A stretch of DNA of 64,000 bases from Carettochelys insculpta. Lineage: Eukaryota; Chordata; Testudines; Carettochelyidae. Where the stretch lies: the NCBI RefSeq assembly GCF_033958435.1, contig NC_134137.1, forward strand, positions 318,183,501-318,247,500, read 5' to 3'. Below, one piece after another: positions 20,406 to 63,634 of this stretch. The notes beneath the pieces are model-generated. The model did no database searches. It was not told where the DNA came from and saw only the letters and a program-made list of their open reading frames with translations. Position numbers and translations under genes: made by a program. Position 1 is the stretch's first letter, and the number at the start of each line of letters is the position of its first letter.

Positions 20406-20981
20406 AGGTAAACATTCATGGTGTCCTTGTTCCCAGTGCTTTCTGCATCTGTGCTATCCTGGCCCATGCCACTCCCTGCGCCTCTTCATTGACTATGTCT
20501 TGGGTGTCCTTGTGGGCCAGATTGCAATGCCCTTATGCACACTTAGTAGTACTATATTTCTGAGGCAGTCTCCATTGCAAAAAATCAGTAATAGGATTCT
20601 TCATAATATAAGCTGCTTCATGACGAGTGAGTTTATTATTATCTGGACCTATCTGTATTAGCTTGCATTATTTTCAGTATAAACTTAATTTACTGTTTAC
20701 TGCCATGTTTATATTCTCACATCATTTTTGTTTTATGTATTTCTCAACTGTGTTCACTGTTCCACACAATTAAGTAGCAAGCTGCTCATCAATGATTTTC
20801 ATGATCATGTTTTTATTCTCCTTTTTAGCTCATTAAAGATTATAAAGATTGCCTAATAAAATACAAATCCCCCCCACTCCAAAATACATCTTCCCACTAC
20901 TCAATATTTTTGCATTGATCATTAGCTTTTGTCTATAGTCCCTTTGCAATTTTCAGTCTGTGGGACAGTACTGTTATCTGA

Positions 20982-21609
20982 AGCTGCGTCTACACGTGCA
21001 CGCTACTTCGAAGGAGCGGCACCAACTTCGACGTTAGGCGGCGAGACATCAAAGTTGCTAACCTCATGAGGAGATAGGAATAGCGCCCTACTTCGACGTT
21101 CAACGTCGAAGTAGGGAAAGTGTAGACGATCTGCGTCCCGCAACGTCGAAATTGCTGGGTCCTCCATGGTGGCCATCAGCTGGGGGGTTGAGAGATGCTC
21201 TCTCTCCAGCCCCTGCGGGGCTCTATGGTCACCGTGGGCAGCAGCCCTTAGCCCAGGGCTTCTGGCTGCTTCTGCGGCAGCTGGGGATCTATGCTGCAGG
21301 CACAGGGTCTGCAACCAGTTGTCAGCTCTGTGGATCTTGTGTTGTTTAGTGCAACTGTGTCTGGGAGGGGCCCTTTAAGGGAGCGGCTGGCTGTTGACTC
21401 CGCCCTGTGACCCTGTCTGCAGCTGTGCCTGGCATCCCTATTTCGATGTGTGCTACTTTGACGTGTAGACGTTCCCTCGCTGCGCCTATTTCGATGTTGG
21501 GCTGAGCAACATCGAAATTGAACATCGACGTTGCCGGCCCTGGAGGACGTGTAGACGTTATTCATCGAAATAGCCTATTTCGATGTTGGCTGCACGTGTA
21601 GACGTAGCC
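20982..21609. mobile_element. MITE family A (copy 1)
   Basis: The ends are AGCTGCGTCTACACGTGCACG and GCACGTGTAGACGTAGCC. They are flanked by TGA on both sides (20979-20981 and 21610-21612), a perfect 3-bp target duplication. The element is rich in TTCGA/TCGAA and CACGTG words. A minus-strand frame (21003-21314, starting MQTLCLQH) recurs in all four family A copies; see the finding on its meaning. It is shorter than the other copies (628 versus 694-711 bp) through a deletion near the left end. No transposase motif. Confidence 0.8.
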
Positions 21610-21760
21610 TGAATGTATGATAGATTGTATTTTTGTAACATATTTCCTTGACAGTCTCATCTGGTACTTAGTACTCTTTGAAAGAAAATTAACCGTAATA
21701 AATTAATTTGGAAGAAAACTAAGGTTGTTATTTCATAGCAATTCCATAATATAAGAATTA

Positions 21761-22592
21761 ATCATACAATCATAGAATACTAAGACTGGAAGGGACCTCG
21801 AGAGGCCATCAAGTCCAGCCCCCCTGTCCTCATGGCAGGACCAAGCACTGTCTAAACCATCTCTGATAGACATCTATCTAACCTGTTCTTAAATATCTCC
21901 AGCGATGGAGATTCCACAACCTCCCTTGGCAATTTATTCCACTGTTTGACCACCCTGATAGTTAGGAACTCTTTCCTAATGTCCAACCTAAACCTCCATT
22001 GCTGCAGTTTAAGTCCATTGCCTCTTGTTCTATCCTCAGAGGCCAAGAAGAACAAGTTTTCTCCCTCCTCCTTGTGACACCCTTTTAGATACCCGAAAAC
22101 CGCTATCATGTCACCTCTCAATCTTCTCTTTTCCAAACTAAACAAGCCCAATTCTTTCAGCCTTTCTTCATCAGTCACATTCTCTAGACCTTTAATCATT
22201 CTTGTTGCTCTTCTCTGGACCCTCTCTAATTTCTCCACATCCTTCTTGAACTGCAGTGTCCAGAACCGGACACAGTACTCCAGCTGAGGCCGAACCAGCA
22301 CAGAGTAGAGCAGAAGAATGACTTCTTGTGTCTTGCTCACACCACACCTGTTAATGCATCCCAGAATCATGTTTGCTTTTTTTGCAACAGCATCACACTG
22401 TTGACTCATATTTAGCTTGTGGTCCACTATAACCCCTAGATCCCTTTCTGCTGTTGTCATTCCTAGACAGTCTCTTCCCATTCGGTATGTGTGAAACTGA
22501 TTGTTCTTTTCCAAGTGGAGCACTTTGCATTTGTCCTTATTAAACTTCATCCTGTTTACCTCAGGCCATTTCTCCAATCTATCCGGAAATGA
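21761..22592 (-). mobile_element. CR1 LINE, 5'-truncated 3' fragment
   Basis: The plus-strand left edge carries the tail microsatellite (ATCATACAATCATAGAAT) followed by GACTGGAAGGGACCTCGAGA, the reverse complement of the conserved CR1 3' end. The rest encodes the end of ORF2 on the minus strand. Truncation at about 22592 is the usual outcome of target-primed reverse transcription. The lack of extensive decay makes it moderately young. Confidence 0.9.
21852..22592 (-). pseudogene. CR1 ORF2, RT C-terminal portion
   Basis: About 247 codons remain open on the minus strand. Landmarks in order: EVNRMKFNKDKCKVLHL, AERDLGVIVDHKLNMSQQCD, RPQLEYCVRFW, KDVEKLERVQRRATRMIKGL, LFSLEKRRLRGDMI, then NGLKLQQWRFRLDIRKEF and WNKLPREVVESPSLEIFKNR. 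These belong to the thumb and C-terminal region of the CR1 reverse transcriptase. The polymerase motifs (FADD) and the endonuclease are absent because of 5' truncation, so the copy cannot mobilise itself. The annotated end in the sequence before EVNR is non-CR1 flank. Confidence 0.88.
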
Positions 22593-22599
22593 TAATGAA

Positions 22600-23050
22600 A
22601 TATATTTCCATTTTCCATATTTTCCATCCAAGACTTAAGAACAACAAAATGTGAACATAGAACATGCATATACTAATTTAACAGATCTCTGTGTAAATTC
22701 ACCCAACTACACGATATAATACAATACAGTTATGGTATATTTATTTCCACCTATTTTAAAGCTATTATTGCCACAAAAAGAAACATTTTCAGCTTGGTTT
22801 CTTTTTTAACCAGCTAATGCATCTGCCTAATTTGTGTGTCCAATTCACCATGCTATTACACTGTAGGTAATTTAACATATCTAAAATCTACATACTTTTT
22901 TATAAAAACAAAACAAAACAAAACAAAAACTACTGATAATTTGTCCCACTGTAGGATGTATGTCCAGAACACATACGTAGGTTGATATTTTTTGGAAATA
23001 GCTCAGTAGTTTAGGAGAACGAGTCCCATGGCACTTTTGAAAACTGCACC
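22600..23050. other. Intergenic with a CAAAA simple repeat
   Basis: AT-rich flank. At 22905-22930 there is a short (AAAAC)n run. Nothing else is recognised. Confidence 0.5.
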
Positions 23051-23052
23051 TT

Positions 23053-23435
23053 GGCTATGTCTAGATTATAGCGACTTGTCAGCAGAAGTTTTTGTCAGAA
23101 GATATCTGTCGACAGAGTGAGGCCAAACTGTCAAGTGGATTGCAAGACTGATCACAGACTGCCCATCCTCTCTATTGGCAAAATGGACAATTGGAAGCAT
23201 AGCAGACTGGGTTGCCTGATATCCCGGAAGCCCTGTCTGTCGACAGAGGGCCCTCCAGAACTTCTACACTGGCTTTCTGTAGATAGGTCTCTGTTGACAG
23301 TGGTGTTATGCCTCTTGAGGAGCGGGATAAGACTGTTGAAAAAATTGCTGCATTCTGTCGATTTACTGTCGATAGAATACCTTGGGAATTCGGATGCTCC
23401 CTGGGTTTTGTTGACAAAACCCTCTAGTGTAGGTA
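23053..23435. mobile_element. TIR element, family B (copy 2)
   Basis: The left end GGCTATGTCTAGATTATAGCG is a clear tribe terminus. The body shares CTGTCGACAGAG words and the block CCCTGTCTGTCGACAGAGGGC with 15119-15541 and 54262-55044. The right end, near CTCTAGTGTAGG, is eroded and lacks the AGCC finish, so no target duplication can be read. Confidence 0.6.
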
Positions 23436-23636
23436 CAATTGTATTGTCAGAACAGCACATGGTAATGAATTTGGGATATGATTTCATTCCATTTCAATAT
23501 ACCTTTATGAATTTACTGTAATAAAACCAACCAAGATGTTACCCTTAAATTACTTTTAAGACGAAATTTAATAATCTAAGACCAAGTTTCTATTATGAGC
23601 TTTATCTTTATGGAAGAATAACTAGAAAGGTATATT

Positions 23637-23637
23637 T

Positions 23638-23677
<40 letters not shown>

Positions 23678-23698
23678 GCTCGCTCTCTCTCTCTCTCC
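23637..23698. repeat. Compound microsatellite (TC)n(AC)n(TC)n
   Basis: About 18 bp of TC, then about 22 bp of AC, a GCTCGC interruption and again TC repeats. Likely polymorphic in length. Confidence 0.95.
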
Positions 23699-23699
23699 T

Positions 23700-26665: not shown

Positions 26666-26671
26666 CACTTA

Positions 26672-26961
26672 GGCTGTGTCTATACTAGCACCCTTCTTTG
26701 AAGGGGGCATGGTAACCACCCTCATCAGAGTATACTAATGAAGTGCTGTGACGAATATGTAGCACTTTATTAGGCTAATTCTCCCCATGGCAACTTCGAA
26801 GTGCCAGACTTCACAGTACATATGCAGTTTTGATATGCCCTTACTTCCCAAAACTTGAAAGTTGCCATAGGGAGAATTAGCCTAATGCAGCAGTTCATTA
26901 GTACTCTCCAATCAGGCTGATTACCATTCCCACTTCAAAGGGGGCTAGTGTAGACACAGCC
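26672..26961. mobile_element. Foldback MITE, family G (290 bp)
   Basis: The ends are GGCTGTGTCTATACTAGCACC and GGGGGCTAGTGTAGACACAGCC, flanked by TTA at 26669-26671 and 26962-26964. The arms repeat CAACTTCGAAGT/TTGCCATAGGGAGAATTAGCC blocks in inverted orientation, so the whole element can fold on itself. Confidence 0.8.
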
Positions 26962-27632: not shown

Positions 27633-27762
27633 TACTTCTTGGAAATCTTGAGGTTTTATTTGGAAAGAGGTCTTTGATCCACGTGAAAGGCATTGCTCAG
27701 GTCTTCAACAAATTGGCAAAATTCATCTAGCCATTTTTTAAAAAGTTATTAAGGGAAAACAC

Positions 27763-27860: not shown

Positions 27861-27930
27861 AACTCTGTCTTTATTTTACCATGCTTAAAATGCTTGTCAC
27901 TAATGCACTTCTTCTACAGATGTAGACTAG

Positions 27931-28221
27931 GGCTACACTACAGCAGTCCTTCCAAAGAGGTTCTTCCAGAAGATCCCTTGTGAAAAGACTTCTTTCAAAA
28001 GATCAAGACCACACACAAAAAGTGGATTGAAAAATCAATCCAGTCTTTCAACAGAGCGTGGCCACACCCCAGCTGCTGTTTTGAAAGAACGGGCCAGAAA
28101 ACGCTGCAGATCAAAAAATCTGGTACCATGGAGGACTGCTTTTTTTGTATTTGGATGCTCCATGGGATTTTTCAGAAGAACTCCAGCTTTTTCGAAAAAA
28201 CTCGCTAGCGCAGACATAGCC
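27931..28221. mobile_element. TIR MITE of the tribe, 291 bp
   Basis: The ends are GGGCTACACTACAGCAGTCC and CTCGCTAGCGCAGACATAGCC. The body contains TTGAAAGA/TCTTTCAA words in both orientations. Flanks TAG (left) and ATAG (right) do not give a clean 3-bp duplication. Confidence 0.55.
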
Positions 28222-31250: not shown

Positions 31251-31704
31251 AGCTGTCTATCCTTGCCACTTTTTCCAGAAGTGGCATGGTAATGAGCCAT
31301 TGGGAAGATGCTAATAAGGCGCGGATGTAAATTTTCTGCAGCTCATTTGCATATGGGCACTTGATTTGGAGTCCAGAAGAAGCTCTTCCGGACTCCAAAA
31401 CACAGGTGCAGACACACGGCCCACGGGGATCTTCCAGAAGGGAACCCTCCTTCCTGAAGCCCCTTCTTCCTCAAAATTTTGGGGAAAAAGGGGCTTCCAG
31501 AAAGAGGGTTTCCTTCTGGAAGATCCCCATGGGCTGAACGTCTGCACCTGTATTTTGGAGTTCAGAAGAGCTTCTTCTGGACTCCAAATCACACACCCAT
31601 ATGCTAAAGAGGCACCGAAAATTTACGTCCGTGCCTGATTAGCATCTTCCAGATGGCTCATTACCAAGCCGTTTCCGGAAGAAGTGCCACATGTAGACAC
31701 AGCC
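31251..31704. mobile_element. Foldback MITE, family D, complete
   Basis: The ends are AGCTGTCTATCCTTGCCAC and GTGCCACATGTAGACACAGCC, flanked by a perfect ATC duplication (31248-31250 and 31705-31707). Inverted arms carry TTTGGAGTCCAGAAGAAGC and GATCTTCCAGAAGGGAA blocks, with an AAATTTTGGGG-type centre. The mirrored frames on both strands are artefacts of the palindrome. Confidence 0.8.
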
Positions 31705-34997: not shown

Positions 34998-36013
34998 CTA
35001 GACCATCCCTGAAAGCCATCTATCTAACCTCTTCTTAAATAGCTCCAGTGATGGCGATTCTACCACCTCCCTTGGCAATTCATTCCAGTGTTTGATCACC
35101 CTGACAGTTAGGAACTTTTTCCTAATGTCCAACCTGAACCTCCCCTGCTGCAATTTCAGTCCATTGCCTCTTGTTCTATCCTCAGAGGCAAGGAAGAACA
35201 AGTTCCCTCCCTCTGCCTTATGACACCCTTTTAGATACCTGAAAACTGCTATCATGTCCCCCCTCAATCTTCTCTTTTCCAAACTAAACAAGCCCAATTC
35301 TTTCAGCCTTTCTTCATAGGTCATGTTCTCTAGACCCTTGATCATTCTCGTTGCTCTCCTCTGGACCCTCTCCAATTTCTCCACATCCTTCCCGAACTGT
35401 GGTGCCCAGAACTGGACACAATACTCCAGCTGAGGCCTAAGCAGCGCAGAGTAGAGTGGGAGAATGACTTCTCGTGTCTTGTTCACAACACACCTGTTAA
35501 TGCATCTGAGAATCATTTTTGCCTTTTTCGCAACAGCATCACACTGTTGACTCATATTTAGCTTGTGGTCCACTATAACCCCTAGATCCCTTTCTGCTGT
35601 ACTCATTCCTAGGCAGTCCTTTCGCATTCTGTATGTGTGACACTGATTGTTCCTTCCTAAGTGGAGCACTTTGCATTTGTCCTTATTAAACTTCATCCTG
35701 TTTACCTCAGCCCATTTCTCCAGTTTATCCAGATCCTTTTGAATTATGACCCTATCCTCCAAAGAAGTTGCAACCCCTCCCAGCTTGGTATCATCTGCAA
35801 ACTTAATAAGTGTACTTTCTATGTCAATATCTACATCGTTAATGAAGATATTGAACAGAACCGGTCCTAAAACAGACCCCTGCGGAACCCCACTAGTTAT
35901 ACTTTTCCAGCAGGATTGAAAACCATTAATAACTACTCTCTGGGTACGGTTATCCAGCCAGTTGTTCACCCACCTTATAGTAGCCCCATCTAAGTTGTAT
36001 TTGCGTAGTTTAT
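34998..36013 (-). pseudogene. CR1 ORF2, RT palm/thumb to C-terminus (3' part of a frameshifted ORF)
   Basis: This frame begins after the shift with RWVNNWLDNRTQRVVINGF, then SGVPQGSVLGPVLFNIFIND (RT motif B region), STLIKFADDTKLGG with the catalytic FADD dyad intact, EKWAEVNRMKFNKDKCK, and continues to the C-terminus (ELPREVVESPSLELFKKR). The protein reads through without a stop for 323 codons. It belongs to the same product as 36014-37330. Because the catalytic motifs are unbroken, only the frameshift and 5' truncation disable it. Confidence 0.9.
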
Positions 36014-37330
36014 TGATAAGTATATTATATGTGAGACCGTGTCAAATGCTTTACTGAAGTCTAGGTATACCACATCTACCACTTCTCCCTTATCCACAAG
36101 ACTTGTTATTCTATCAAAGAAAGCTATTAGATTGGTTTGACATGATCTGTTTTTAACAAAACCATGCTGGCTGTTCCCTAGCACCTTACCACATTCCAAT
36201 TGCTTGCAGATGATTTCTTTAATTACCTGCTCCATTATCTTTCCTGGCACAGAAGTTAAGCTGACTGGCCTGTAGTTTCCCGGGTTATTCTTGTTCCCCT
36301 TTTTATAAATGGGTACTATATTTGCCCTTTTCCAGTCTTCTGGAATCTCTTCCGTCTCCCACGATTTACCAAAAATGATTGCTAAAGGCTCAGATACCTC
36401 TACTATCAGCTCCTTGAGGATTCTAGGATGCATTTCATCAGGCCCTGGTGATTTGCAGACATCTAATTTCTCTAAGTAAATTTTAATTTGTTCTTTTCCT
36501 ATTTCAACTTCTAAACCTACCCCTTTTTCACTAACATTCTCTATGTCAAGCATTCCTTCAGATTTCTCAGTGAAGACCGAAACAAAGATATCATTAAACA
36601 CCTCTGCCACTTCCAAATTCCCTGTTACTCTTCCTCCCTCCTCACTGACCAATGGCCCTACCCTCTCCTTAGTCTTCCTCTTGTTACCAATGTATTTGTA
36701 AAAAGCCTTCTTGTTTCCCTTTATGCTTGTAGCTAGTTTGAGTTCATTTTGTGCCTTAGCCTTTCTAATCTTCCTCCTGCATGCTCGTGTTGTTTGCCTA
36801 TATTCATCCTTTGTAATTTGTCCTAGTTTCCATTTCTTATATGATTCCTTTTTTATTTTGAGATCATGCAAGATCTCCTGGTTAAGCCAAGGCAGTCTTT
36901 TGCCATGTTTTCTATCTTTCCTACACAGCGGGATAGCTTGCTTTTGGGCCCTTAATAATGTCCCTTTGAAAAACTGCCAACTCTCCTCAGCCGTTTTTCC
37001 CATCAGTTTAGCTTCCCATGGGACCTTACCTACCAGCTGTCTGAGTTTACCAAAATCTGCCTTCCTGAAATCCATTATCTCTATTGTACTGTTTTCCCTT
37101 CTACCCTTCCTTAAAATTGTGAACTCTATGATTTCATGATCACTTTCACCCAAGCATCCTTCCACTTTCAAATTCTCAATAAGTTCCTCCCTATTTGTTA
37201 AAATTAAATCTATAACAGCTTCCCCTCTGGTAGCTTTTTCAACCTTTTGGAATAAAAAGTTGTCTGCAATGCAATCCAAGAATTTATTGGACAGTCTGTC
37301 CCCTGCTGTATTAGTTTCCCAATGATCAAA
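36014..37330 (-). pseudogene. CR1 ORF2, endonuclease C-terminus and RT fingers/palm (5' part)
   Basis: The frame is open for over 430 codons of CR1 sequence. In order: the end of the APE-like endonuclease with [20 protein letters not shown] and ESDHEIIEF (SDH motif), a basic linker ([20 protein letters not shown]), [59 protein letters not shown] and [15 protein letters not shown], the motif A with its catalytic aspartate. A one-nucleotide shift between about 36007 and 36030 moves the rest into the frame of 34998-36013. The N-terminal endonuclease is missing. Confidence 0.9.
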
Positions 37331-37861
37331 GTTGCTTGACTGCTGATATTTTTGAGAGAACAAAGTGTTTATAATTTTTACCTCAACTACAAAACTCGCT
37401 GGAATTTTCTCTCCCCATCTTTTTTTGCTTGTTTGTTTATATTTTATACCAGCTATACTGCTCAACACTTCTGAAAACCAGGTCATCAGTGCAAAACTTG
37501 AGGCACACAAAAATGTTGCAAAATGTTGCAACATGGTCTTATGTTTTTAATTCTAAATAAATATTTATCTGACCTCCTTCTTAGGGAGAACAGTGACACA
37601 CAGTTAAAATCCCATGGCCAGGGGAAAAAAATCATATCTAGTTGTTTCCATCTACTCGTAAAGGTGAGACTAAACACAACTGTAGAACTCTTTTCTATTT
37701 ACACTCTGATATAAGAATATTCAAAATGATCCATAAAGACTGACTTCATAACTGACCTAATAAAATGCCATATGATGTTATGCATTTCCTGGAATCGGTG
37801 TGTCCAGAAGGTAGTACTTGTGTAACTGACTGTTATCCTAGTGAGGGGCATGCTTTTGTTT

Positions 37862-38877
37862 GGTTACATCTACACTAGAATTCCTCTTTTGAAAGGGGTA
37901 TGCAAATGAAGGAAATCAAAATGCAAACGAGGCACTGGTTTACATATCTGACACCTCATTTGCATACTATTCTTTCAAAAGAGCTTCTTTTGAAAGAAGA
38001 AAACCAGTGTAGACACTGCTCTTTTGAAAGTAAACCCCATCTTCGAAAGAATCCTTATTCCCTTTTTTTATAGGAAGGATTCTTTTGAAGATGGGGTTTA
38101 CTTTTGAAAAAGCAGTGTGTACACTGGGGCTGGGTCTACACGTGCCCCTTCCTTTTGAAAGGGGCATGTTAATGAGCCTGTTCGAAAGATGATAATGAGG
38201 TGCTGCATATTCACCAGAATAGGATCATCAGATAGGAAGAAGGGCTTTCGAAAACTGAGGGGGGTCTTTTCAGAAGGTCCCGTCTCCATGGGCGGCACGC
38301 GATTTGAAAAGCCGCACTTTTGAATTGCCGTGGCCACCATTATGCTAATGAGATGCTGCATATTCATTGCAGCGCTTCATAAGCATATTTCAAACAGGCT
38401 CATTAACATGCCCCTTTCGAAAGGAAGTGGCACGTGTAGACACAGGGTGGTTTTCTTCTTGCAAAAGGAGTTCTTTCAAAATAAGAATATGCAAATGAGG
38501 TGTCAGATATGCAAATCTACACCTCATTTGCATTTTCAATTTCCCTCATTTGCATGCCTCTTTTGAAAGAGGAATGCAAGTATAGATGCAACCAAGAAGA
38601 AAAGCATTGTAAACACAACTCTTTCGAAGGTAAACCTCATCTTCAAAAGAACCCTTCTTCCTAAAAAAAAAAAATAGGAAGAAGTGTTCATTTGAAGATG
38701 GGGATTACTTTCAAAAGAGCCATGTCCACACTGCTTTTCTTCTTTCGAAAGATGCTCTTTTGAAAGAAAAATATGCAAATGAGGTGCCAGATTGTAAATC
38801 TGTGCCTCGTTGGCATTTTTTGATTTCCTTCATTTGCATGCCTCTTTCAAAAGAGGAATGCTAGCGTAGACATAGCC
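37862..38877. mobile_element. Foldback MITE, family F, dimeric copy with nested insertion
   Basis: The left end GGTTACATCTACACTAGAATTCC and the final right end (GCTAGCGTAGACATAGCC) are flanked by TTT on both sides (37859-37861 and 38878-38880). Inside, the order is left arm, centre (TTATTCCCTTTTTTTA), right arm ending at 38593 (GTATAGATGCAACC), then a partial left-arm inner piece, a second centre near 38660-38690 and a second right arm. The single copy at 54297-54692 shows the monomer (396 bp). Another element sits at 38128-38447. Confidence 0.75.
38128..38447. mobile_element. Foldback MITE, family G-like, nested in family F
   Basis: The ends are GGCTGGGTCTACACGTGCCCC and GGCACGTGTAGACACAGGG, flanked by TGG at 38125-38127 and 38448-38450. 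Arms contain AATGAGCCTGTTCGAAAG and its inverted counterpart, with inverted TGCATATTCA blocks. Host sequence resumes exactly after the second TGG (TTTTCTTCTT), as in the intact relative at 54297. Confidence 0.85.
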
Positions 38878-39479: not shown

Positions 39480-41000
39480 AACCCTTTTTGTAGCTCTTCA
39501 CAGTCTGCTTCAGACTTAACTGTTTGGTCATCGGCTAATTTTGCTTCCTCACTGTTTATCCCTTTTTCCAGATCATTTTTAAATATGTTGAATAGGACTG
39601 GTCCCAGTAAGGACCCCTGGGGGACACCACTATTTACCTCTCTCCATTCTGAAAACTGACCATTTATTCCTACCCTTTGTTTCCTATCTTTTAACCAGTT
39701 ACCAATCCAAGAGAGGACCTTGCCTCTTATCCCATGACATTAACTTTGCTGAAGAGCCTTTGGTGAGGGACCTTGCCAAAGGCTTTCTGAAAACCTAAGT
39801 ACACTATATCCACAGGATCCTCTTTGTCCACATTCCTGTTGACCCTTTCAAAAAATTCTAATAGATTGGTGAGGCATGACTTCCCTTTAAAAAAGCCATG
39901 TTGACTCTTCCCCAACAAATTATGTTCATCAATGTGTCTGACAATTCCGTTGTTTAGTAGAGTTTCAACCAGTTTGCCCAGTACTGAAGTCAGACTGACT
40001 GGCCTGTAGTTGCCAGGATCACCTCTGGAGCCCTTTTTAACGATTGGCGTCACATTAGCTATCCTCCAGTCATATGGAACAGAAGCTGATTTAAATGACA
40101 GATTGCAAACTAAAGTTAGTAGTTCTGCAATTTCACTTTTGAGTTCCGTCAGAACTCTTGGGTGAATACCATCTGGTCCTGGTGACTTATTACTGTTTCG
40201 TTTATCCATTAGTTCCAAAACCTCTTCAAATGACACCTCAATTTGAGACAGTTCATCAGATTTGTTACCTGAAAAGAATTGCTCAGGTTTGGGAATGTCC
40301 CTCACATCCTCAGCTGTAAGGACTGATGCAAAGAAATCATTTAGTTTCTTCGCAATGGCCTTATCATCCTTGAGAGCTCCATTAGCATCTCAATCATCCA
40401 GTGGCTCTACTGGTTGTTTAGCAGGCTTCCTGTTTCTGATGTACTTAAAAATTATTTTGCTATTACTTTTTGACTCTGGCTAGCTGTTCTTCAAATTATT
40501 TTTTGGCTTTCCTAAATATATTTTTACACTTCACTTGGTAAAGTTTACGTTCCTTTCTATTTTCCTCGCTAGGATTTAACTTCCATTTTTAAAGGATGCC
40601 TTTTTGTCCCTCACTGCCTCTTTTAATGTATTGTTGAAACATGGTGGTACTTTTTTGGTTCTCTTACTATGTTTCCTAAATTGGGGTACACATTTAAGTT
40701 GAGCCTCTAATATGATGTCTTTAAAAAGTTTCCATGTAGCTTGTAGAGATTTCACTTTAGGTACTGTACCTTTTAATTTCTGTTTAACTAACTTCCTCAT
40801 TTTTTGTGTAATCCCCCTTTTTTGAAATTAAATACTACAGTCTTGGGCCACTGTAGTATTTTCCCAGACACAGGAATGTTAAATTTAATTATATTATGGT
40901 CACTATTACCAAGAGGTCCAGAAATATTTACCTCTTGGACCAGATCCTGTGCCCCATTTAGACTAAATCAAGAATTGCCTCTCCTCTTTTGGGTTCCAGG
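39480..41000 (-). mobile_element. Older CR1-clade LINE, truncated at both ends
   Basis: On the minus strand the endonuclease end (LGNSDHNIIKFNIPVSGK, about 40860-40930), a linker, the RT domain (40305-39727) and the SGVPQGSLLGPVLFNIF block with a KLADDQTV motif (about 39650-39530) appear in order, separated by frameshifts and stops. The copy ends at LQKG near 39480 without a 3' UTR or tail. It is clearly a different subfamily from the CR1 at 34911, older, possibly L3-like. Confidence 0.8.
39727..40305 (-). pseudogene. CR1-clade LINE reverse transcriptase, fingers/palm fragment with motif A mutated
   Basis: The frame holds [80 protein letters not shown] and VDIVYLGFQKAFGKVPHQ. In the family the last block is YLDF.KAFDKVPH, so both aspartates of motif A, including the catalytic one, read as glycine here. 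This is consistent with neutral decay of a dead copy. The homologous catalytic dyad ADD downstream is retained. Confidence 0.85.
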
Positions 41001-41277
41001 CCTAGCTGCTCCAAGAAGCAGTCATTTAAGCTGTCAAAAAGCTTTACCTCAGCTTCCCGTCTCCTGTTTGCTGCCTTTTTTTCTGGAAGGAAACAGCTCC
41101 CTGACCTGCTCCCAGACCCTGTGAAAGGTGTTCTTTCTCAGGTCAAAACTAAGGTAACTGAACTTCACACAGTCAGCTGGAGCGTAGACATCCTATGTGT
41201 GGGTGGGACTGACAATATGCTTAGGGGTTCAGCTTTCCTCAACTTTTCTATCATCTACTACTTCCTTAACTTTGCCA

Positions 41278-41988
41278 AGCTGTGTCTACACATGCACGCT
41301 ACTTCGAAGTAGCGGCACCAACTTCGAAATAGCGCCCGTCACGGCTACACGCGTCGGGCGCTATTTCGAAGTTAACTTTGACGTTAGGCGGCAAGAGGTC
41401 GAAGTCGCTAACCTCATGAGGGGATTGGAACAGCGCCCTACTTCGACATTCGACGTCGAAGTAGGGACCGTGTAGACGATCCGCGTCCTGCAACGTCGGA
41501 ATTGTGGGGTCCTCCATGGCAGCCATCAGCTGGGGAGTTGAGAGACGCTGTCTCTCCAGCCCCTGCAGGGCTCTATGGTCACCGTGTGCAGCAGCCCTTA
41601 GCCCAGGGCTTCTGGCTGCTGCTGCTGCAGCGGGGGATTCATGCTGCATGCACAGGGTCTGCAACTCGTTGTCGGCTCTGTGTATCTTGTGCTGTTTAGT
41701 GCAAGTGTGTCTGGGAGGGGCCCTTTAAGGGAGCGGCTTGCTGTTGAGTCCGTCCTGTGACCCTGTCTGCAGCTGTGCCTGGCACCCTTATTTCGATGTG
41801 TGCTACTGTGGCGTGTAGACGTTCCCTCGCAGCGCCTATTTCGATGTGGTGCTGCACAACGTCAATGTTGAACATCGACGTTGCCAGCCCTGGAGGATGT
41901 GTAGACGTTATTCATCGAAATAGCCTATTTCGATGTCGCCACATCGAAATAGGCTACTTCGATGTAGGCTTCACGTGTAGACGTAGCC
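41278..41988. mobile_element. MITE family A (copy 2), 711 bp
   Basis: The ends are AGCTGTGTCTACACATGCACG and CACGTGTAGACGTAGCC, flanked by CCA on both sides (41275-41277 and 41989-41991). Same orientation as 20982-21609. Contains the family A minus-strand frame 41299-41664 (121 codons, MQTLCMQH to ATSK). Rich in TTCGAAATAG words near both ends. Confidence 0.85.
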
Positions 41989-42168: not shown

Positions 42169-42238
42169 GGCTACGTCTACACGTGAAGCCTACATCGAAG
42201 TAGCCTATTTCGAAGTAGCGTGCACGTGTAGACACAGC
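42169..42238. mobile_element. 70-bp miniature derivative of family A (ends only)
   Basis: The unit starts with GGCTACGTCTACACGTGAAG, passes through CTACATCGAAGTAGCC and ATTTCGAAGTAGCGTGC, and finishes at ACGTGTAGACACAGC. It is the left end and the right end of family A joined directly, without the roughly 640-bp interior. Confidence 0.75.
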
Positions 42239-42938
42239 TTTGGAGTGCAGGCACCATAATATGTGAGATTGGCAACACTCTCAAGGGTTTCACTTTCCTC
42301 AGTTTTACTGTCCTCTACTACTTCCTCAACTTGGGCAGTCTACAATGCTCCAGGCACATTGACCATTTCTGACAGTGGCAATCATCAAAGCATCCTGATT
42401 TAGGGACAGGCTTAGGAAAACTGGATGTTTGTTTTCAACAGCAGCAGGGATTGAGGGCAACGCACTCAGGGATGATGACATCACACATTCACAACCACTT
42501 TTGCAGGGACTTTTTTTCCCATAAGACACTGACAAAAGCCCCCAAAATGCAATGGGACTACAGGAAGTGGGGGATAGGTGCCCTACAATGCAGTGCTGCA
42601 ACAGTCAAACTTAGGCAATGTAGTGGGGACACAATACGTCAACTTTGTGAGCAGGTGTGGACACTCTACTTTGACTTTATAAAATCTAGTGGTATAAAGT
42701 TGACTTTAATAAATTTGACTTTATTTCCTAATGTAGGCATACCCAAAGAAATGTCATTGTGGTCCCAGTAATTATGTTTTCATCTGCTTCTATAAACTTG
42801 TGGCCTCCTGACAATGGATTTGGCTGTCTTGAAAGCATGAGAAAATAATGAAAAACCTTTTGGCTCTGTTTTAAATTAGATGTTGATTTTTGAAGTGTTG
42901 CCAATCTTCCAACCAAAGTTTATACCTTGTGACATCAA

Positions 42939-43374
42939 GGCTACGTCTACACGTGCCCCAAACTTCGAAATGGCCATGCAAATGGCCATTTCGAAGTTTA
43001 CTAATGAAGCGCTGACATGCATATTCAGCGCTTCATTAGCATGCGGGCGGCAGCGGCGCTTCGAAATTGACGAGCCTTGCCGCCGCGCGGCGCATCCAGA
43101 CGGGGCTCCTTTTCGAAAGGACGCCACCTTCTTCGAAGTCCCCTTATTCCCATGAGCTCACGGGAATAAGGGGACTTCGAAGTAGGTGGCGTGCTTTCGA
43201 AAAGGAGCCCCGTCTGGATGCGCCGCGCGGCGGCAAGGCTCGTCAATTTCGAAGCGCCACTGCCGCCCGCATGCTAATGAAGCGCTGAATATGCATGTCA
43301 GCGCTTCATTAGTAAACTTCGAAATGGCCATTTGCATGGCCATTTCGAAGTTTGGGGCACGTGTAGACGTAGCC
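42939..43374. mobile_element. Foldback MITE, family E, 436-bp near-perfect palindrome
   Basis: The left end GGCTACGTCTACACGTGCCCC and right end GGGGCACGTGTAGACGTAGCC are exact inverted repeats, and the arms stay almost identical up to the centre near 43156 (ATGAGCTCACGGG). Arms contain CTTCGAAATGGCCATGC, TGCATATTCAGCGCTTC and a CGCCGCGCGGCG-type GC block. Flanks CAA and TAT do not match as a target duplication. High arm identity and retained CpGs suggest recent activity or hairpin-mediated homogenisation. Confidence 0.85.
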
Positions 43375-52711: not shown

Positions 52712-53021
52712 AGCTATGTCTACACAGTGGGCTCTATTCTGGGGATACCAAAGTATCCTGAAATAGCTGTTCAAGTCTATACAAAGTGCTGGTTGACTTG
52801 GCACGGTTTTTGTGATGATATTGGAGCATCCCTGTAAACCTCAATAGAGGAGGAGTACAGCGATGCCTCAAAATAGGGCTTTATTTATACAAGTGGCATC
52901 ATTTAGACAGCACCACATGCCAAAATAACCTATTTTGAAATCACTTGAAATAAGCTACACACTTTGCATAGTGTAAATTGCATAGCTTATTTTGCGATTA
53001 GTGCACCATGTAAGCATAGCC
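52712..53021. mobile_element. TIR MITE of the tribe, 310 bp
   Basis: The ends are AGCTATGTCTACACAGTGGG and GCACCATGTAAGCATAGCC, flanked by CTG on both sides (52709-52711 and 53022-53024). Inverted words include ATCCTGAAATAGCT on the left and AAATAAGCTAC / AGCTTATTTTGC on the right. More diverged than families A and E. Confidence 0.7.
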
Positions 53022-53489: not shown

Positions 53490-53832
53490 GGCCGTTTCTA
53501 CACAGGCCACTTTCCTCAAAAGTGGCGTGGTAATACATGGCCTGAAATATGCCAGTGAGGCACGGATGCAAATTCCCCACACCTCATTAGCATACAGTCA
53601 CATGATTTGGAGTCTGGAAGAACGTTCTTCCGGACTCCAAAACGCCGTGTAGAAGCGCAGCCCCGGAGGAGCTTCCGGAAGGAAGTCCTTCTTCTGGAAG
53701 CCCCTTCTTCCCAATAATTTTGGGACCATATGCTAATGAGGCACGGGGAATTTGCATCTGCACCTCATTAGGATATTTCAGGCCATGTATTACCATGCCA
53801 TTTTCGAAGACAGTGGCCTGTGTAGAAACAGC
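53490..53832. mobile_element. Foldback MITE, family D (copy with shorter centre)
   Basis: The ends are GGCCGTTTCTACACAGGCCAC and GTGGCCTGTGTAGAAACAGC, flanked by TTT on both sides (53487-53489 and 53833-53835). It shares TTTGGAGTCTGGAAGAACG, TTCCGGAAGGAAGTCC and TGCAAATTCCCC blocks with 16547-16993; part of the right arm is deleted (343 versus about 450 bp). Confidence 0.8.
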
Positions 53833-53837
53833 TTTTG

Positions 53838-54261: not shown

Positions 54262-55044
54262 GGTTAGGGTTACACTAGAATGTCCACACACAAAATGGCT
54301 GCATCTACACTTGCATTCCTCTTTCGAAAGAGGCATGCAAATTAGTGAAATCAAAAATGCAAATGAAGTGCAGATTTACATATCTAGCACCTCATTTGCT
54401 ATTCTTCTTTCAAAAGATCTCTTCTCAAAAGAAGAAAAGCAGTGGAGACACTGCTTTTTCGAAGGTAAACCCCATCTTCAAAAAAGCCCTTCTTCCCTTT
54501 TTTTATGGGTAGAAAGATTCTTTCAAAGATGGGGTTTACTTTCGAAAAAGTAGCGTCTATGCTACTTTTCTTCTTACAAAAGAAGAATATGCAAATGAGA
54601 TGCCAGACATGCAAATCTGTACCTCATTTGCATTTTCCATTTCCCTCATTTGATGCCTCTTTCAAAAGAGGAATGAGAGTGTAGATGGAGCCAATGTGTT
54701 TCGTTGACAGTTTGTCAACAAAACTCAGCACTTTTGACGACAGCGTTCTGCCTCTCAGCCATGAAGCATAACACTGCTGTAGACAGCAAAAAGCTGTATG
54801 GATGCTCTGGGGGACCTTCTTTCAATAGACAGAGCATCCAGAACCATGAGCAGCCCTGTCTGCTGTGCTTCCAGGTACTTGTTTTGTTGAGACAGCGTCT
54901 GGGCAGTCCAGCTGCTCTGTTGACATAGCAAAGTGCTCTTACAATTATCTTTGGTGTGTGGCCAAACTGCGGACAGAAGTTTTGTCAGCAAATCTCTTGC
55001 AACAGTGACTTCTGTCAACAGATTTCTGTAGTGTAACCCCAGCC
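54262..55044. mobile_element. TIR element, family B (copy 3), with nested foldback
   Basis: The left end GGTTAGGGTTACACTAGAATG and right end CTGTAGTGTAACCCCAGCC are inverted repeats flanked by ACT on both sides (54259-54261 and 55045-55047). Removing the family F element at 54297-54692 leaves a body of about 385 bp that matches 15119-15541 in inverted order, with CGTTGACAGTTTGTCAAC and TTCTGTCAACAG words. Confidence 0.8.
54297..54692. mobile_element. Foldback MITE, family F, complete monomer nested in family B
   Basis: The ends are GGCTGCATCTACACTTGCATTC and GAGTGTAGATGGAGCC, flanked by AAT on both sides (54294-54296 and 54693-54695). Arms mirror each other (CTCTTTCGAAAGAGG outside, AAAGTAAACCCCATCTTC inside) around a TTCCCTTTTTTTATGGG centre. 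This copy defines the monomer length for 37862-38877. Confidence 0.85.
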
Positions 55045-57938: not shown

Positions 57939-57941
57939 ATA

Positions 57942-58635
57942 GGCTACGTCTACACGTGAAGCCTACATCGAAATAGCTTATTTCGAAGTAGCAACAAATG
58001 AGTAACGTCTACATGTCCTCCAGGGCTGGCAACGTCGATGTTCAACTTCGACGTTGCGCGGCACCACATCGAAATAGGCGCTGTGAGGGAATGTCTACAT
58101 GCCAAAGTAGCACACATCGAAATAAGGGTGCCAGGCACAGCTGCAGACAGGGTCACAGGTAGGACTCAACAGCAAGCCGCTCCCTTAAAGGGCCCCTCCC
58201 AGACACAGTTGCACTAAACAACACAAAATACACAGAGCTGACAACTGGTTGCAGACCCTGTGCCTGCAGCATGGATCCCCAGCTGCCGCAGCAGCAGCCA
58301 GAAGCCCTGGGCTAAGGGCTGCTGCACACGGTGACCATAGAGCCCCGCAGGGGCTCGAGAGAGAGCGTCTCTCAACCCCTCAGCTGATGGTCGCCCTGGC
58401 AGACCCCGCTATTTCGAAGTTGCGGGACGCGCAACGACTACACAGTCCCTACTTCGACGTTGAACGTCGAAGTAGGGCGCTATTCCGATCCCCTCATGGG
58501 GTTAGCGACTTCGACGTCTCACTGCCTAATGTCGAAGTTAACTTCGAAATAGCGCCCGACGCGTGTAGCCGTGACGGGCGCTATTTCGAAGTTAGTGCCG
58601 CTACTTCGAAGTAGCGTGCACGTGTAGACACGGCT
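57942..58635. mobile_element. MITE family A (copy 3), inverted orientation
   Basis: The ends are GGCTACGTCTACACGTGAAGCC and GCGTGCACGTGTAGACACGGCT, flanked by ATA on both sides (57939-57941 and 58636-58638). Carries the family frame on the plus strand, 58249-58614 (121 codons). TTCGAAATAGCGCC words near the right end form local hairpins. Confidence 0.85.
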
Positions 58636-58639
58636 ATAG

Positions 58640-59190
58640 AGAGTACAGATCACATAGTTTTATTTTTTCACATTTGGCATCACCTAAGGTTTCCTGAAAC
58701 TTTCTTGTACAGCAGGATAAAAGGTTTTTCTGTAAAAATTTAGTAGCTGCAAGCAGACTTTTCATATTAATATTAATTTCCTCTGCTTTTAATAGTGCCA
58801 CATCTTTTGAATCTTTTAAAGACACACACTGTGATTCATAAGCTTGTTCCAACTACAGGAGGATCAAAAGGCTCAGCTTCTCTAGTAACGACCATGCCAG
58901 GGTAATGGAGAAGAGGTTACTCCCATTAGTTGAGCCTCAGGAGAAAGAATGTGTATTTTGTCTTGGCTTTAGAATAATGGACCAGCTCTTTCCTCTATCA
59001 CAGCTGTTTGAAAGGTCTTGGGAGTCTGCTAATCTGATCTACCCTTGTTTTGTAGACCTCAGGAGGATATATGGCCACTTTCTTAGAAATATCTTTAGGA
59101 AGTATTATAGTAGTATGAGGTGCTTTTGCATAGCCAGTCTCTCTATTTTTGAAGTAACAGTTGTGCCTATATTCTTGGCATTAAGTTAAG
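58640..59190. other. Intergenic, nothing recognised
   Basis: No motif in the short frames 58634-58852 and 58905-59189. Confidence 0.45.
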
Positions 59191-59194
59191 TGTG

Positions 59195-60110
59195 TTCAAA
59201 ATGGGTATTGTAGTCCACCAAGGGTGCATTTTGTCCCCAGTTCCTGATTTTCAGGCACAGGATGTGAAGGCACAGCTGAATTGTAAAGTGCATCTGATAC
59301 AGGGACTCAAAAATGGTATCTCTGCTGTTTGCTAATAATATTGTTCTTGCTTCTGCTGACTCTGATGTCCAATGCACACTCGAACTTTTCTCTGCTGAGT
59401 GTAAATCAGCTGGGATGAGAATCAGCACCTCCAAATCAGATGTTGTGGTCCTCTCCTGGCAGACAGTGGACTACTCTCTCTCTAAGAAGAGGTTCCATTT
59501 CTTCACCTGGAAACAGTTCAAGTATCTCAAGGGTCATGTTCATGAGTGGTGATAAGTGTGACTGTGAGATTGACCAGTAGATTGGTGCAGCAGTGGCAAT
59601 GATGTGGACACTGTACCAGTCCAAGGTGGCAAAGGAGGAACTGAGTTCTTGGGTGAAGCTCTCTCTCTTTAAAAGTTGCTCTGCTCCACCATCCTCACCT
59701 ATGACCATGAAATTTAGATAATGATGCAAAAGACAAGAGTGCAGGAACAAGTGGGGGAAATGAGATTTCTGTGCAGGGTGGGTGGGCTCACTTGCCAAGA
59801 TAAGATGAGGGGTGTGGCTATATGAGAGAGTCTCAGAGTGAAGCCACTAGTCCTCTAGATCAAAAAGAGCCAACTGAGGTAACCTGGGCACCTGACAAAG
59901 TGCCTCCTGGGAGGTTTCCTTTGGAATTCTATGTGGCATGTCCCACAGGGAGGAGGCTCCCAGGACACACTGTAGGGGTGACATTTCCAACACTTGTGAA
60001 TCCCCCAGGAGGTTCTGGAACCTGTTGTGGGGAAAAGGAGATCTGGTTCTCCCTACTCTCCATTCTGCTCCCATGACCCCCCATCAAGGAAACTGGCATA
60101 AAGGAAAAAG
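59195..60110 (+). pseudogene. Rex1-like (CR1 clade) LINE, RT and C-terminal part, degenerate
   Basis: The plus strand reads, across several frames, HQGCILSPV (RT motif B end), SLLFANNIVLASADSDVQC, GMRISTSKSDVVVLSWQTVD and FKYLKGHV. Further on come MRFLCRVGGLTCQDKMRG, GGFPLEFYVACPTGRRLPGH and finally GEKEIWFSLLSILLP. This order and the GRLPLEVF.A.PTGRR..G and GE.E.W.SLL..LLP blocks are characteristic of the Rex1/Babar LINE family. The catalytic dyad FADD reads FANN, and there are stops and frameshifts, so the copy is inactive. The 3' boundary near 60110 is approximate. Confidence 0.75.
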
Positions 60111-60171
60111 AAGGCAATGGCTCTGATTCATTTGTAGGAATAGGACTGCAAAGAAATTACATCCATACCTG

Positions 60172-60560
60172 TAACAGGATGTGCATTGGGTCTTGGACCT
60201 TCTGCCACTTCTGCCACACAAATCAGCCAGAGACCTCTGCTTTGGTGTAATCACTTAAGCTATTTATTGACAGGCTCAGCCTCCACCACCTTATATTCAC
60301 ACAGAGCTTCAGGCTTGCAGCCTTAGGGAGTAATAGCTTCTGCAGCTAGCAGGGGAGCATGGCCCTTGACTCCTCCCTTTCCCTCCCACCACAATCCTTA
60401 CTGTCAGCCTTATGTAGTCCTCTGGCTAATGAGCCCAGCAGCTGCTGCCCATTTGCCACATTGGCATGGGCTTACTCCACCAGCTCCAATTAGCCTTTAT
60501 TACTTGGAGCTGGTATAACAAAGGTCTGGCTCAAGGCTTCCTAGACAGCACCCTATCATA
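60172..60560. repeat. LTR-like repeat (tentative)
   Basis: The stretch starts TGTAACAGGATGTGCATTGG and ends near GCACCCTATCATAATATC, with a GCTATTTATTGACAGGCTCAG block that looks like a retroelement LTR with an AATAAA-poor polyadenylation region. No partner LTR or internal region is present in the window. Confidence 0.3.
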
Positions 60561-60561
60561 A

Positions 60562-61279
60562 TATCTCATAGCTCATCTTCAATGAGTGCATTAGGAGATT
60601 TTCTACTATAAATTTGTTCCTCCTCAACCCCATTCAAAACACATATTTCTCTGTATTTGTGTCTCCATTGACCATTGCCACCACTTTTCCATCCATTGGC
60701 ACCTGTGAGGCAATTTATGAATGCCAACTGAGTCACAGTTTTCAAGAGTAAAATCAGTTTGTTGTCATTGTTTTCCCCTTTTGATGGAACACATTACATA
60801 ATTCTTGGTGTAGCACTCAATGTGTAAGCTGTGTGATATTTGTGGTCATCTTTTTGGTCACTGCATCCTCTTTATCTTCTCTGAAATATTTTTGTTAAAG
60901 GTTACAGTTTCAGAAAGATTCTCACCTGCCTCATATATTGAAATGGTGCTTAATGGCTGCTACCAGGCTAATGCATGCCATGGGACTTAGGATAAAACAG
61001 AACTCACCCCCAGCTAGCATGTGGCGCAGCATCTTCAACTTTCCCCTGTTGTTTGATGTTCTTCCTCCCCACACTTGTTATGTTCAATTTACGAGTGAAC
61101 GTCTTATAGAGAAGAAAGTGCCAGAAAGCATTGCATTTAACTAGGCCCTCCACCATAGTATTCTCCAAAGATTGAGCAATTTATCTAACACTATTCATTT
61201 CCCAATTTTTACCTGAAATGACTGACCAAAGTAAGAACCAAGGATTGTTTCAAAAATTACTTTGGAATAGTAATGACAT
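60562..61279. other. Intergenic, nothing recognised
   Basis: No gene or paired repeat identified. Confidence 0.45.
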
Positions 61280-61282
61280 AAT

Positions 61283-61688
61283 GGCCGTGTCTACACTAGC
61301 CCCAAACTTCGAAATGGCCATGTAAATGGCCATTTCGAAGTTTACTAATGAAGCACTGAAATACATATTCAGCACCTCATTAACATGCGGGCCGCTGCGG
61401 CACTTCGAAATTGACATGGCTCGCCGCTGCGTGGCTCGTCCCGACGGGGCTCCTTTTCGAAAGGACCCCGGCTACTTTGAAGTCCCCTTATTCCTGTGAG
61501 CAGATGGGAATAAGGAGACTTCGAAGTAAGTGGGGTCCTTTTGAAAAGGAGCCCCGTCAATTTTGAAGTTCCGTGGCTGCCCGCATGCTAATGAGGCGCT
61601 GAATATGTATTTCAGCACTTCATTAGTAAACTTCGAAATGGTCATTTACATGGCCATTTTGAAATTTGGGGCTAATGTAGACATAGCC
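61283..61688. mobile_element. Foldback MITE, family E (older copy)
   Basis: The ends are GGCCGTGTCTACACTAGCCCC and GGGGCTAATGTAGACATAGCC, flanked by AAT on both sides (61280-61282 and 61689-61691). It shares CTTCGAAATGGCCATG, TACATATTCAGC, GACGGGGCTCCTTTTCGAAA and CCCCTTATTCC blocks with 42939-43374, but the arms differ from each other more and the right arm has a deletion. Confidence 0.8.
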
Positions 61689-62091
61689 AATATAATGTGT
61701 GTTATGTAACTATGTGCATATGCTTTGTGGATGAATCCACTAATTTCTGACTGGATACAAATTGGATCACAGAAGTCCCCTTATGACTGTCGCCCAGTAT
61801 GTTGATCATAACCCTGATCCTGCCTATGTGCTCTCTGCAGAGCCCCATTACCTTGTCCTGCTGGGCCATAAGATCTGGTCTCCCCTAACAAAGGCATAGA
61901 GTCGGGGTAACAGCCCCCAGAAGAACAACACAAATAATGAACTAGCTTACTCTGGGAGGGTTCAATTAAAGGGATTGACAGCACCCAAAAGCACAGCCCT
62001 CTAAAGGGACCAAAACTCTGGATAAATCCATCTTACTTCTCTATATTTTCGTTAACAGAAAGCTTATGATCTTGCCCCCTTATCAATGAAA

Positions 62092-62801
62092 GGCTACGTC
62101 TACATGTGCACCCAACTTCGAAATAGCTTATTTCGATGTTGCGACATCGAAATAGGCTATTTCGATGAATAACGTCTACACGTCCTCCAGGGCTGGCAAC
62201 GTCGATGTTCAACTTCGACGTTGCTCAGCCCAACATCGAAATAGGCACAGCGAGGGAACGTCTACACGCCAAAGTAGCACACATCGAAATAAGGGAGCCA
62301 GGCACAGCTGCAGACAGGGTCACGGGGCGGACTCAACAGCAAGTCGCTCCCTTAAAGGGCCCCTCCCAGACACACTTTCATTAAACAGTGCAAGATACAC
62401 AGAGCCAACAACTAGTTGCAGACCCTGTATATGCAGCACGGACCCCCAGCTGCAGCAGCAGCAGCCAGAAGCCCTGGGCTAAGGGCTGCTGCCCACGGTG
62501 ACCACAGAGCCCCGCAAGGGCTGGAGAGAGAGTATCTCTCAACCCCCCAGCTGATGGCCGCCATGGAGGACCCCGCTATTTCGATGTTGCGGGACGCGGA
62601 TCGTCTACACGTCCCTACTTCGATGTTGAACGTCGAAGTAGGGCGCTATTCCCATCCCCTCATGGGGTTAGCGACTTCGACGTCTCGCCACCTAACGTCG
62701 ATTTCAACTTCGAAATAGCGCCCAACACGTGTAGACGTGACGGGCGCTATTTCGAAGTTACTGCCGCTACTTCGAAGTAGCGTGCACGTGTAGACGCAGC
62801 T
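62092..62801. mobile_element. MITE family A (copy 4), inverted orientation
   Basis: The ends are GGCTACGTCTACATGTGCACCC and GTGCACGTGTAGACGCAGCT, flanked by AAA on both sides (62089-62091 and 62802-62804). The family frame is present on the plus strand (62416-62718, 100 codons), with its C-terminal part shifted relative to copies 2 and 3. Confidence 0.85.
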
Positions 62802-62977
62802 AAAGAGAGCTATGCACAGCTGTTGCCCCCCCCCACTACTCACTCCCCAGAAAACTATTATTTATAGTGGGTTTGATAATTTGATAAGAAATAAATATAT
62901 TTTATTAAGTATAAAAAGTAGGATATAAGTGTTTGCAAGTGAAAATAAATGGATCAAAGGAAGTTAGTAAGCCAAAG

Positions 62978-63025
62978 GGGGAAAAGAAAAGAAAAGAAAA
63001 GAAAAGAAAAGAAAAGAAAAGAAAC
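62978..63025. repeat. Simple repeat (GAAAA)n
   Basis: About nine perfect units of GAAAA, likely length-variable. Confidence 0.95.
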
Positions 63026-63052
63026 CCACACGAATTAAGTCTAATACACTAA

Positions 63053-63614
63053 AGCTGTGTCTACATGTGGCACTTCTTCCAGAAGTGGCATGGTAATAAG
63101 TCATCCAGAAGATGCTAATGAGGTGCATATGAAAGTTCCTACACACCATTAGCATCTGGGCATATGGTGTGGAGTCCAGAATACACATGCAGATGTGTGG
63201 CCCGCAGGGATCTTCCAGAAGCAAACCCTCCTTCCAGGGGCAACATGGGAGGGGAGTTGGACTTTGTGTCCTAGAAGGGCTGGGGCCAAGACCAGAAGGT
63301 TTGGGGCCTAGGGCAGTCAGCCCTCAGCACTGCCTGGACCATAGCATTGCCCCCAGCCCCACTCCTTCACAGATGTGCACAGCCAGAACAGCACTACCAT
63401 GACACTTCAAAGAGGCCCGAGACAATTGCCCCCCTTTGCCCTCCACAATTGGTGGGCTTGCTGTGTACCCAAGAATATACTGCCTTTCCAGCTAAAATAC
63501 CATTGTCTCGTGGGAACCAGCCTTTGTTAAATGGAGAATCTACCATTTAAAAAGTGTGTGTAATGTTTAACAGTTGAGCTGTCTATGAAAGAAGTGGCAC
63601 GTGTAGACACAGCC
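63053..63614. mobile_element. Foldback MITE, family D, with nested repeat replacing part of the right arm
   Basis: The left end AGCTGTGTCTACATGTGGCAC and right end GTGGCACGTGTAGACACAGCC are flanked by TAA on both sides (63050-63052 and 63615-63617). The left arm (to about 63235) follows 31251-31440 closely. The right arm is reduced to its last 30 bp, and an unrelated repeat fills 63236-63584. Confidence 0.8.
63236..63584 (-). repeat. Unnamed interspersed repeat, copy 2 (inside family D element)
   Basis: The reverse complement matches 49503-49835 over its length, for example CAGGCAGTGCTGAGGGC, AGCTGGAAAGGCAGTAT and GGGCAAAGGGGGGCAATTG. Its insertion into a family D element with an intact TAA duplication shows that it arrived later. 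Confidence 0.75.
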
Positions 63615-63634
63615 TAAAAGAAACTGTTATAAAG

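Follow-up and report, generated by a model that had tools for sequence, protein, structure and literature searches.

A tribe of turtle MITEs of the PIF/Harbinger type with a degenerate 3-bp duplication in a palindromic target

The genome of the turtle Carettochelys insculpta carries a very abundant tribe of miniature inverted-repeat transposable elements (MITEs), which we describe from a stretch of 64,000 nucleotides (NC_134137.1, positions 318,183,501 to 318,247,500; hereafter the window). By its proteins, ends, target-site duplication (TSD) length and extended palindromic target, the tribe belongs to PIF/Harbinger in the broad sense (PHIS), and the superfamily is settled for family 1. The tribe very probably consists of non-autonomous MITEs of PIF/Harbinger-type transposons. 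Family 1 stems from an element of about 5 kb with genes for a DDE transposase and a Myb/SANT protein, whereas the other families (2 to 4) have only ends and target in common with it and presumably depend on cross-mobilisation or on sister lineages for their movement. The elements insert into the palindromic target WCWC-[NNN]-GWGW, whose duplicated core is degenerate. The site is chosen mainly by the letters flanking the 3-bp cut, and at the core edges, rather than by the core itself.

Target-site duplications and the target motif

The window holds 16 paired elements, two of which contain a nested copy. Fifteen of the pairs are bounded by RGCTRYGTCTACAC-like ends, while the pair at 54262-55044 has more divergent ends of the GGTTAGGGTTACAC type. 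Directly beyond these ends, 15 of the 16 pairs carry an exact 3-bp repeat. This includes all 14 insertions for which the original prediction had claimed such repeats, each of them exact with fixed ends; the two pairs added here are 42169-42239 (TTG, matching) and 42939-43374 (CAA/TAT, no TSD). Exact 3-bp identity is expected by chance in 1.7% of pairs, and mismatched left and right flanks, used as a control, agree at 3 bp in 4 of 210 combinations. At the same boundary, the first 15 pairs have exact repeats of 1, 2, 3 and 4 bp in 4, 3, 14 and 0 cases, respectively, and shifting the boundary abolished the 3-bp signal.

In the window, ends were paired with knowledge of the flanks, which were visible during the scan for ends. 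Moreover, the left end at 31251, a terminus with a deletion, and the pair 54262-55044 were taken from the earlier list, the latter being present also in a list pre-filtered for TSD match. A flank-blind test, in which similarity was the sole criterion for pairing ends, covered 200 kb of contig C1 of the same genome (20 stretches of 10 kb, evenly spaced). Here, exact repeats were found in 9 of 16 pairs at 3 bp, compared to 6, 3 and 1 at lengths of 1, 2 and 4 bp.

The 15 duplicated cores of the window are TGA, TTA, ATC, TTT, TGG, CCA, TTG, CTG, TTT, ACT, AAT, ATA, AAT, AAA and TAA, only two of which fit TWA, as had been noted before. Outward of these 3 bp, on both sides of the elements, G occupies +1 in 20 of the 32 half-sites and +3 in 22, while W occupies +2 in 31 and +4 in 30. 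All 16 sites reach a motif score of at least 5 of 8, as against 14.8% of window positions, and the observed sum of scores was reached by none of 200,000 resamples. Since the motif was first noticed in these same 16 sites, tests outside of them were needed. Among held-out unpaired window ends with up to two mismatches, GWG is present in 6 of 24 (p = 7e-5), a signal that is diluted at up to three or four mismatches (9/105 and 27/565, respectively). In the 200-kb sample, 12 of 34 ends have GWG at spacing 3 (3.3% expected), and none has it at spacings 0, 2, 4 or 6. As a side observation, the base at +2 tracks the type of end, with A in 7 of 9 half-sites facing A-starting ends and T in 16 of 23 facing others; an end-specific orientation on the target is possible.

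The exact terminal 14-mer GTGTAGACRYAGCC occurs in 58,362 + 58,265 copies in the 2.18-Gb assembly, while its reversed control occurs 13 times. NNN-GWGW follows 17,005 + 16,708 of these copies, i.e. 33,713 of 116,627 (28.9%), compared with a background of 1.6% measured in a sample; since some of the 14-mers may not be termini, the share among true ends is at least this high. Cores were read at the first 100 places listed, which fall in the first 6.1 Mb of C1, all have GWGW and include a few repeated neighbourhoods. Under this condition, 28 different triplets were found, with G in the first position in 2 and C in the last in 0. This makes the core HND, with G rare at its start and C at its end, and not simply arbitrary. 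Eight of these 100 cores are TWA and eight are CWG, so the sampled cores do not show the fixed TWA target that the original prediction had named as a refutation. Among the genome matches listed, 10 of 11 inward-facing pairs up to 2 kb apart have identical cores. The TSDs had originally been described as arbitrary. This view holds insofar as the duplicated core is degenerate, but it misses that the site is read in the WCWC/GWGW flanks and at the core edges.

Paralogous empty sites within the window support insertion with a single copy of the core at 38128, 54297 and, less cleanly, 42169. When the two flanks of 38128-38447 are joined, they match four other family 4 arms (75-81%) with no gap at the junction and with the core TGG present once; the flanks of 54297-54692 show the same pattern against 15371-15473 (73%), with a single core AAT. 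For 42169-42239 (TTG), the match is to 41131-41272 (71%) and has gaps nearby. The flanks of different elements are mostly unrelated to each other. The exception is the pair of sites at 41278 and 42169, which are close neighbours in duplicated sequence (82% over 56 bp); beyond that, there are a few further flank-to-flank matches of 19 to 29 bp with E-values of 0.002 to 0.02.

Full-length partners of family 1

A profile search of the same genome with Pfam DDE_Tnp_4 yielded 34,400 first-look candidates. Of these, 150 were scored—all cover the whole domain and most are free of stops—and two copies were then read. Element A (5,248 bp; C1:25297045-25302292) is flanked by the TSD TGG/TGG in the target TCAC-TGG-GTGT, and element B (5,032 bp; C2:46330862-46335893) by CCT/CCT in ACTC-CCT-GTGA. 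Both start with GGCTACGTCTACAC, the end of the tribe, and finish with its AGCTG-type terminus, and their half-sites GTGA, GTGT, GAGT and GTGA all count as GWGW. Each contains a frame with DDE_Tnp_4 (6.5e-42 in A, 2.2e-42 in B) and, on the opposite strand, a frame with Myb_DNA-bind_4 (1.7e-12 and 1.3e-13, respectively). A and B are 88-92% identical. Candidates for the autonomous copy with the same ends that the original prediction had asked for are thus found at two places, and their transposase is of the DDE_Tnp_4 type.

In the window element at 62092-62801, the first 285 bp and last 319 bp are 88-90% identical to the two termini of the ~5-kb elements; in A, the matching stretches are the left 298 bp (88%) and the right 320 bp (90%). 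For the elements at 20982, 41278 and 57942, identity to the ends of A and B is 80-91%. By these alignments, the four long window elements of family 1 are therefore internal-deletion derivatives of such ~5-kb elements. The open frames of family 1 MITEs were also considered as coding remnants, an idea that was dropped: they gave no Pfam hit, and the codon-position differences between two copies (12/12/17) look neutral.

Among the best 120 of 272 homologues of the transposase, the first six are proteins of C. insculpta itself (80-92% identity), followed by other turtles at about 50-61%, with turtle DDE_Tnp_4 proteins some of which are named HARBI1. An alligator protein matches at 48%, and lower matches come from snake, fish, frog, lancelet and many unnamed proteins of metagenome source. 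The matches listed also include a second Carettochelys transposase lineage at 61% identity (P0010). No solved structure matched the transposase at E-values up to 1.

Several peculiarities of the transposase genes were seen in passing. A GC-rich minisatellite, with periods of 29 and 58 bp among those reported, lies within the transposase open frame (L103:2429-3004, L104:2701-3143) and is probably an intron, and a CAG run near the start of the gene encodes a glutamine stretch. The transposase domain is also found in the predicted Carettochelys proteins P0003, P0004 and P0045, which are named glucocorticoid-induced transcript 1, ANKRD13C and AIRE; these are either exonised copies or artefacts of gene models.

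Superfamily placement and alternative explanations

The tribe shares with PIF/Harbinger as understood by Han et al. 2015 (PMC4482050) two genes for a DDE transposase and a Myb/SANT protein (in family 1, two copies, with DDE_Tnp_4 lying within the tribe's ends), terminal inverted repeats starting with A or G (except for the 38447 end, which begins CCC) and a 3-bp TSD. With the TSD lying in an extended palindromic target, these features make it PIF/Harbinger in the broad sense. The turtle elements are 5.0-5.2 kb long compared to an average of about 4.1 kb for autonomous PIF/Harbinger (PMC4482050). PHIS transposons have been sorted by TSD into TWA, AT, none, ANT, CWG and C|TNA|G (PMC4482050), and none of these classes fits the tribe. 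Unlike PIF/Harbinger in the TWA sense of the same authors, it has few TWA cores (2/15 in the window and 8/100 genome-listed), and its full-length copies sit at TGG and CCT.

Where the tribe does resemble known systems is in the reach of its target. A preference beyond the 3-bp TSD, spanning 9 bp in plants and 15 bp in vertebrates, is ascribed to all characterised PIF/Harbinger elements (PMC2836001), and 3-bp targets are embedded in longer palindromes (PMC4890758). As in maize PIF and rice mPing (PMC2836001), preference extends 3 bp past the TSD on both sides; unlike in mPing (core TTA) and Tourist elements (usually TTA/TAA), the core is degenerate. The zebrafish Harbinger3_DR target is AAACACCWGGTCTTT (PMC3016246); if CWG is taken as its TSD, ACAC-CWG-GTCT would match WCWC/GWGW at 7 of 8 flank positions. 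Harbinger3_DR and NuwaI (TSD CWG, PMC4482050) share with the tribe a 3-bp TSD within a longer palindrome, but their CWG core is fixed, whereas CWG makes up 1/15 window and 8/100 genome-listed cores here. Likewise, NuwaII (C|TNA|G, PMC4482050) has C and G immediately beyond a 3-bp TSD and a Myb/SANT partner, yet TNA is found in only 3/15 window cores. The tribe also differs from Pangu (TSD ANT), with ANT in 3/15 window cores, and from ISL2EU (2-bp AT TSD), as the window TSDs are 3 bp long. Maize PIF targets CWC-TTA-GWG, the flanks of which would equal those of the tribe exactly.

The original prediction had left two options, a Harbinger lineage with relaxed target choice or another superfamily with 3-bp TSDs. 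For family 1, the former stands, with DDE_Tnp_4 and Myb_DNA-bind_4 found between the same ends, and the latter, for which CACTA, Chapaev3 and Academ had been named, is unsupported. CACTA elements usually have a 3-bp TSD whose core is degenerate, which would speak for such an origin. However, CACTA/CMC termini begin with CAC, whereas those of the tribe begin with AG or GG and the same-ended elements encode DDE_Tnp_4, which also separates them from Chapaev3. While CMC TSDs of 2-4 bp (PMC4482050) would accommodate the tribe, published accounts treat the extended palindromic target as a trait of PIF/Harbinger (PMC2836001, PMC4890758). We therefore consider it very unlikely, and for family 1 already contradicted, that the tribe belongs to CACTA/CMC, Chapaev3, Academ or Zator and resembles PIF/Harbinger in its ends by convergence. 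A classical TWA Harbinger, with 3-mer matches owed to eye-fitted boundaries or chance, would explain the TTA and TAA among the window cores and the weak T/A tendency of first and last core bases (13/30, p = 0.06). Yet this is hardly credible given exact 3-bp repeats in 15/16 pairs where 1.7% was expected, 9/16 even in the flank-blind pairing, and the scarcity of TWA both among the genome-listed cores (8/100) and at the sites of A and B. Finally, more than one Harbinger lineage, each with its own core rule, might hide under one set of ends, such that only the pooled core seems degenerate. Ends alone are common to several MITE families, a second Carettochelys transposase lineage exists (P0010, 61%) and the +2 base varies by end type, as counted above; family 1 by itself, however, spans TGA, CCA, TTG, ATA and AAA in the window plus TGG and CCT in the 88-92% identical A and B, and we deem such a mixture unlikely.

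Several results weigh against placing the whole tribe in PIF/Harbinger with the target given above. The TWA TSD is given as a trait of 214 PIF/Harbinger families (PMC4482050), and the TSDs of the tribe are not TWA. Sequence ties to a transposase exist in family 1 only; families 2 to 4 and the elements at 26672, 52712 and 54262 are linked by shared ends and target alone, and a domain search of the 30 longest among 340 stop-to-stop window frames (60 aa or more) revealed no transposase. An exact TSD is absent from 7 of the 16 flank-blind pairs, which are old copies or wrong pairs, and from 42939-43374 (CAA/TAT). As for the motif, held-out window ends with up to one mismatch have GWG in 1/5 (p = 0.14, not significant), and GWG in the 200-kb sample is also seen in 4/34 ends at spacing 1 and in 8/34 at spacing 5, the latter excess perhaps stemming from longer GWGWG runs.

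Direct observation covers the ends, TSDs of 3 bp, the motif in the flanks, genes for transposase and Myb protein lying between tribe ends, and the deletion relationship. Beyond this, a mechanism can be proposed for PIF/Harbinger-type mobilisation of the tribe. The Myb-like protein would bind the terminal 14 bp, and perhaps subterminal TTCGAA-type motifs, and recruit the transposase. A transposase dimer would then read one GWGW half-site on either side of the target, with a 3-bp staggered cut between the half-sites, so that the TSD bases would hardly be read. The same proteins might also move families 2 to 4.

The groups within PHIS have so far been delimited by TSD sequence (PMC4482050). In this tribe, the TSD is hardly constrained while the flanks are Harbinger-like, which suggests that the common element lies in the flanks and that the core is an added, lineage-specific constraint. 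The chances seem about even that the tribe represents a distinct PHIS group, in which recognition is largely uncoupled from the duplicated core, the palindrome WCWC|HND|GWGW being read beyond the staggered cut and at its edges. Such a group would support very large MITE amplification in a turtle lineage and may retain working autonomous copies. As this one genome provides over 110,000 exact copies of the terminal 14-mer as well as full-length elements, the target rule is statistically testable. Sorting MITEs by a TWA duplication would overlook or misplace families of this kind. Literature searches on turtle and crocodilian Harbinger MITEs, superfamilies with 3-bp TSDs and PIF targets turned up no title or opening of an abstract that describes this target, though coverage of subscription papers was poor and the result is hence no proof of novelty. 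A literature search for the terminal sequences returned one unrelated paper. A terminal 17-mer was also sought in public bacterial and viral contigs, which yielded 48 and 26 stretches; as BLAST of 15 elements against these 74 loci returned a single match of 26 bp, the stretches were put down to chance.

The elements of the window

Family 1 comprises, on the minus strand, 20982..21609 (628 bp, TSD TGA) and 41278..41988 (711 bp, CCA) and, on the plus strand, 57942..58635 (694 bp, ATA) and 62092..62801 (710 bp, AAA). To these comes a minimal element of 71 bp at 42169..42239 (plus strand), which has little beyond its two ends and whose TSD TTG lies in a fitting target; it is either a very small mobile unit or the result of internal deletion after insertion. 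All other elements are listed without a strand. Family 2 includes a MITE of 406 bp at 61283..61688 (AAT) and the near-perfect palindrome of 436 bp at 42939..43374 (219-nt arms, 98%). The right flank of the latter, TAT|GTGTTT, agrees with the target motif despite the missing TSD, and one of its junctions may be rearranged.

Family 3 is represented by a foldback MITE of 454 bp at 31251..31704 (ATC), with a small deletion in its left terminus, and by MITEs of 344 bp at 53490..53833 (TTT) and 562 bp at 63053..63614 (TAA). The family 4 element at 37862..38877 (1016 bp, TTT) contains the nested MITE 38128..38447 (320 bp, TGG), for which the other family 4 arms provide the paralogous empty sites. A second family 4 element, 54297..54692 (396 bp, AAT; empty site at 15371-15473 on the minus strand), is in turn nested in the related element 54262..55044 (ACT), which has the GGTTAGGGTTACAC-type ends. 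Two further tribe MITEs lie at 26672..26961 (290 bp, TTA) and 52712..53021 (310 bp, CTG), the latter with an interior of its own. Weaker candidates were left uncounted: 27925-28221 (GTA/ATA flanks), 15119-15541 (TGC/TGT flanks), 16547, for which a right end was not found, and 38111, an alternative left end.

The motif [AT]TCGA[AT] occurs 63 times in the 7,415 bp of elements compared to 6 times in the 56,585 bp outside, and in many ends a TTCGAA-type motif is centred about 28 bp from the terminus. General covariation of the subterminal palindrome was considered and dropped, as scores are high in some ends only. The ratio of observed to expected CpG is 0.81-1.25 in the elements 42939-43374, 20982-21609, 41278-41988, 57942-58635, 61283-61688 and 62092-62801, whereas the window as a whole stands at 0.24 and families 3 and 4 have values of 0.11-0.57; this suggests that families 1 and 2 are younger. 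Besides the tribe, the window contains retrotransposon remains in the form of RVT_1 frames on the minus strand at 35001-37546 and 39730-40389.

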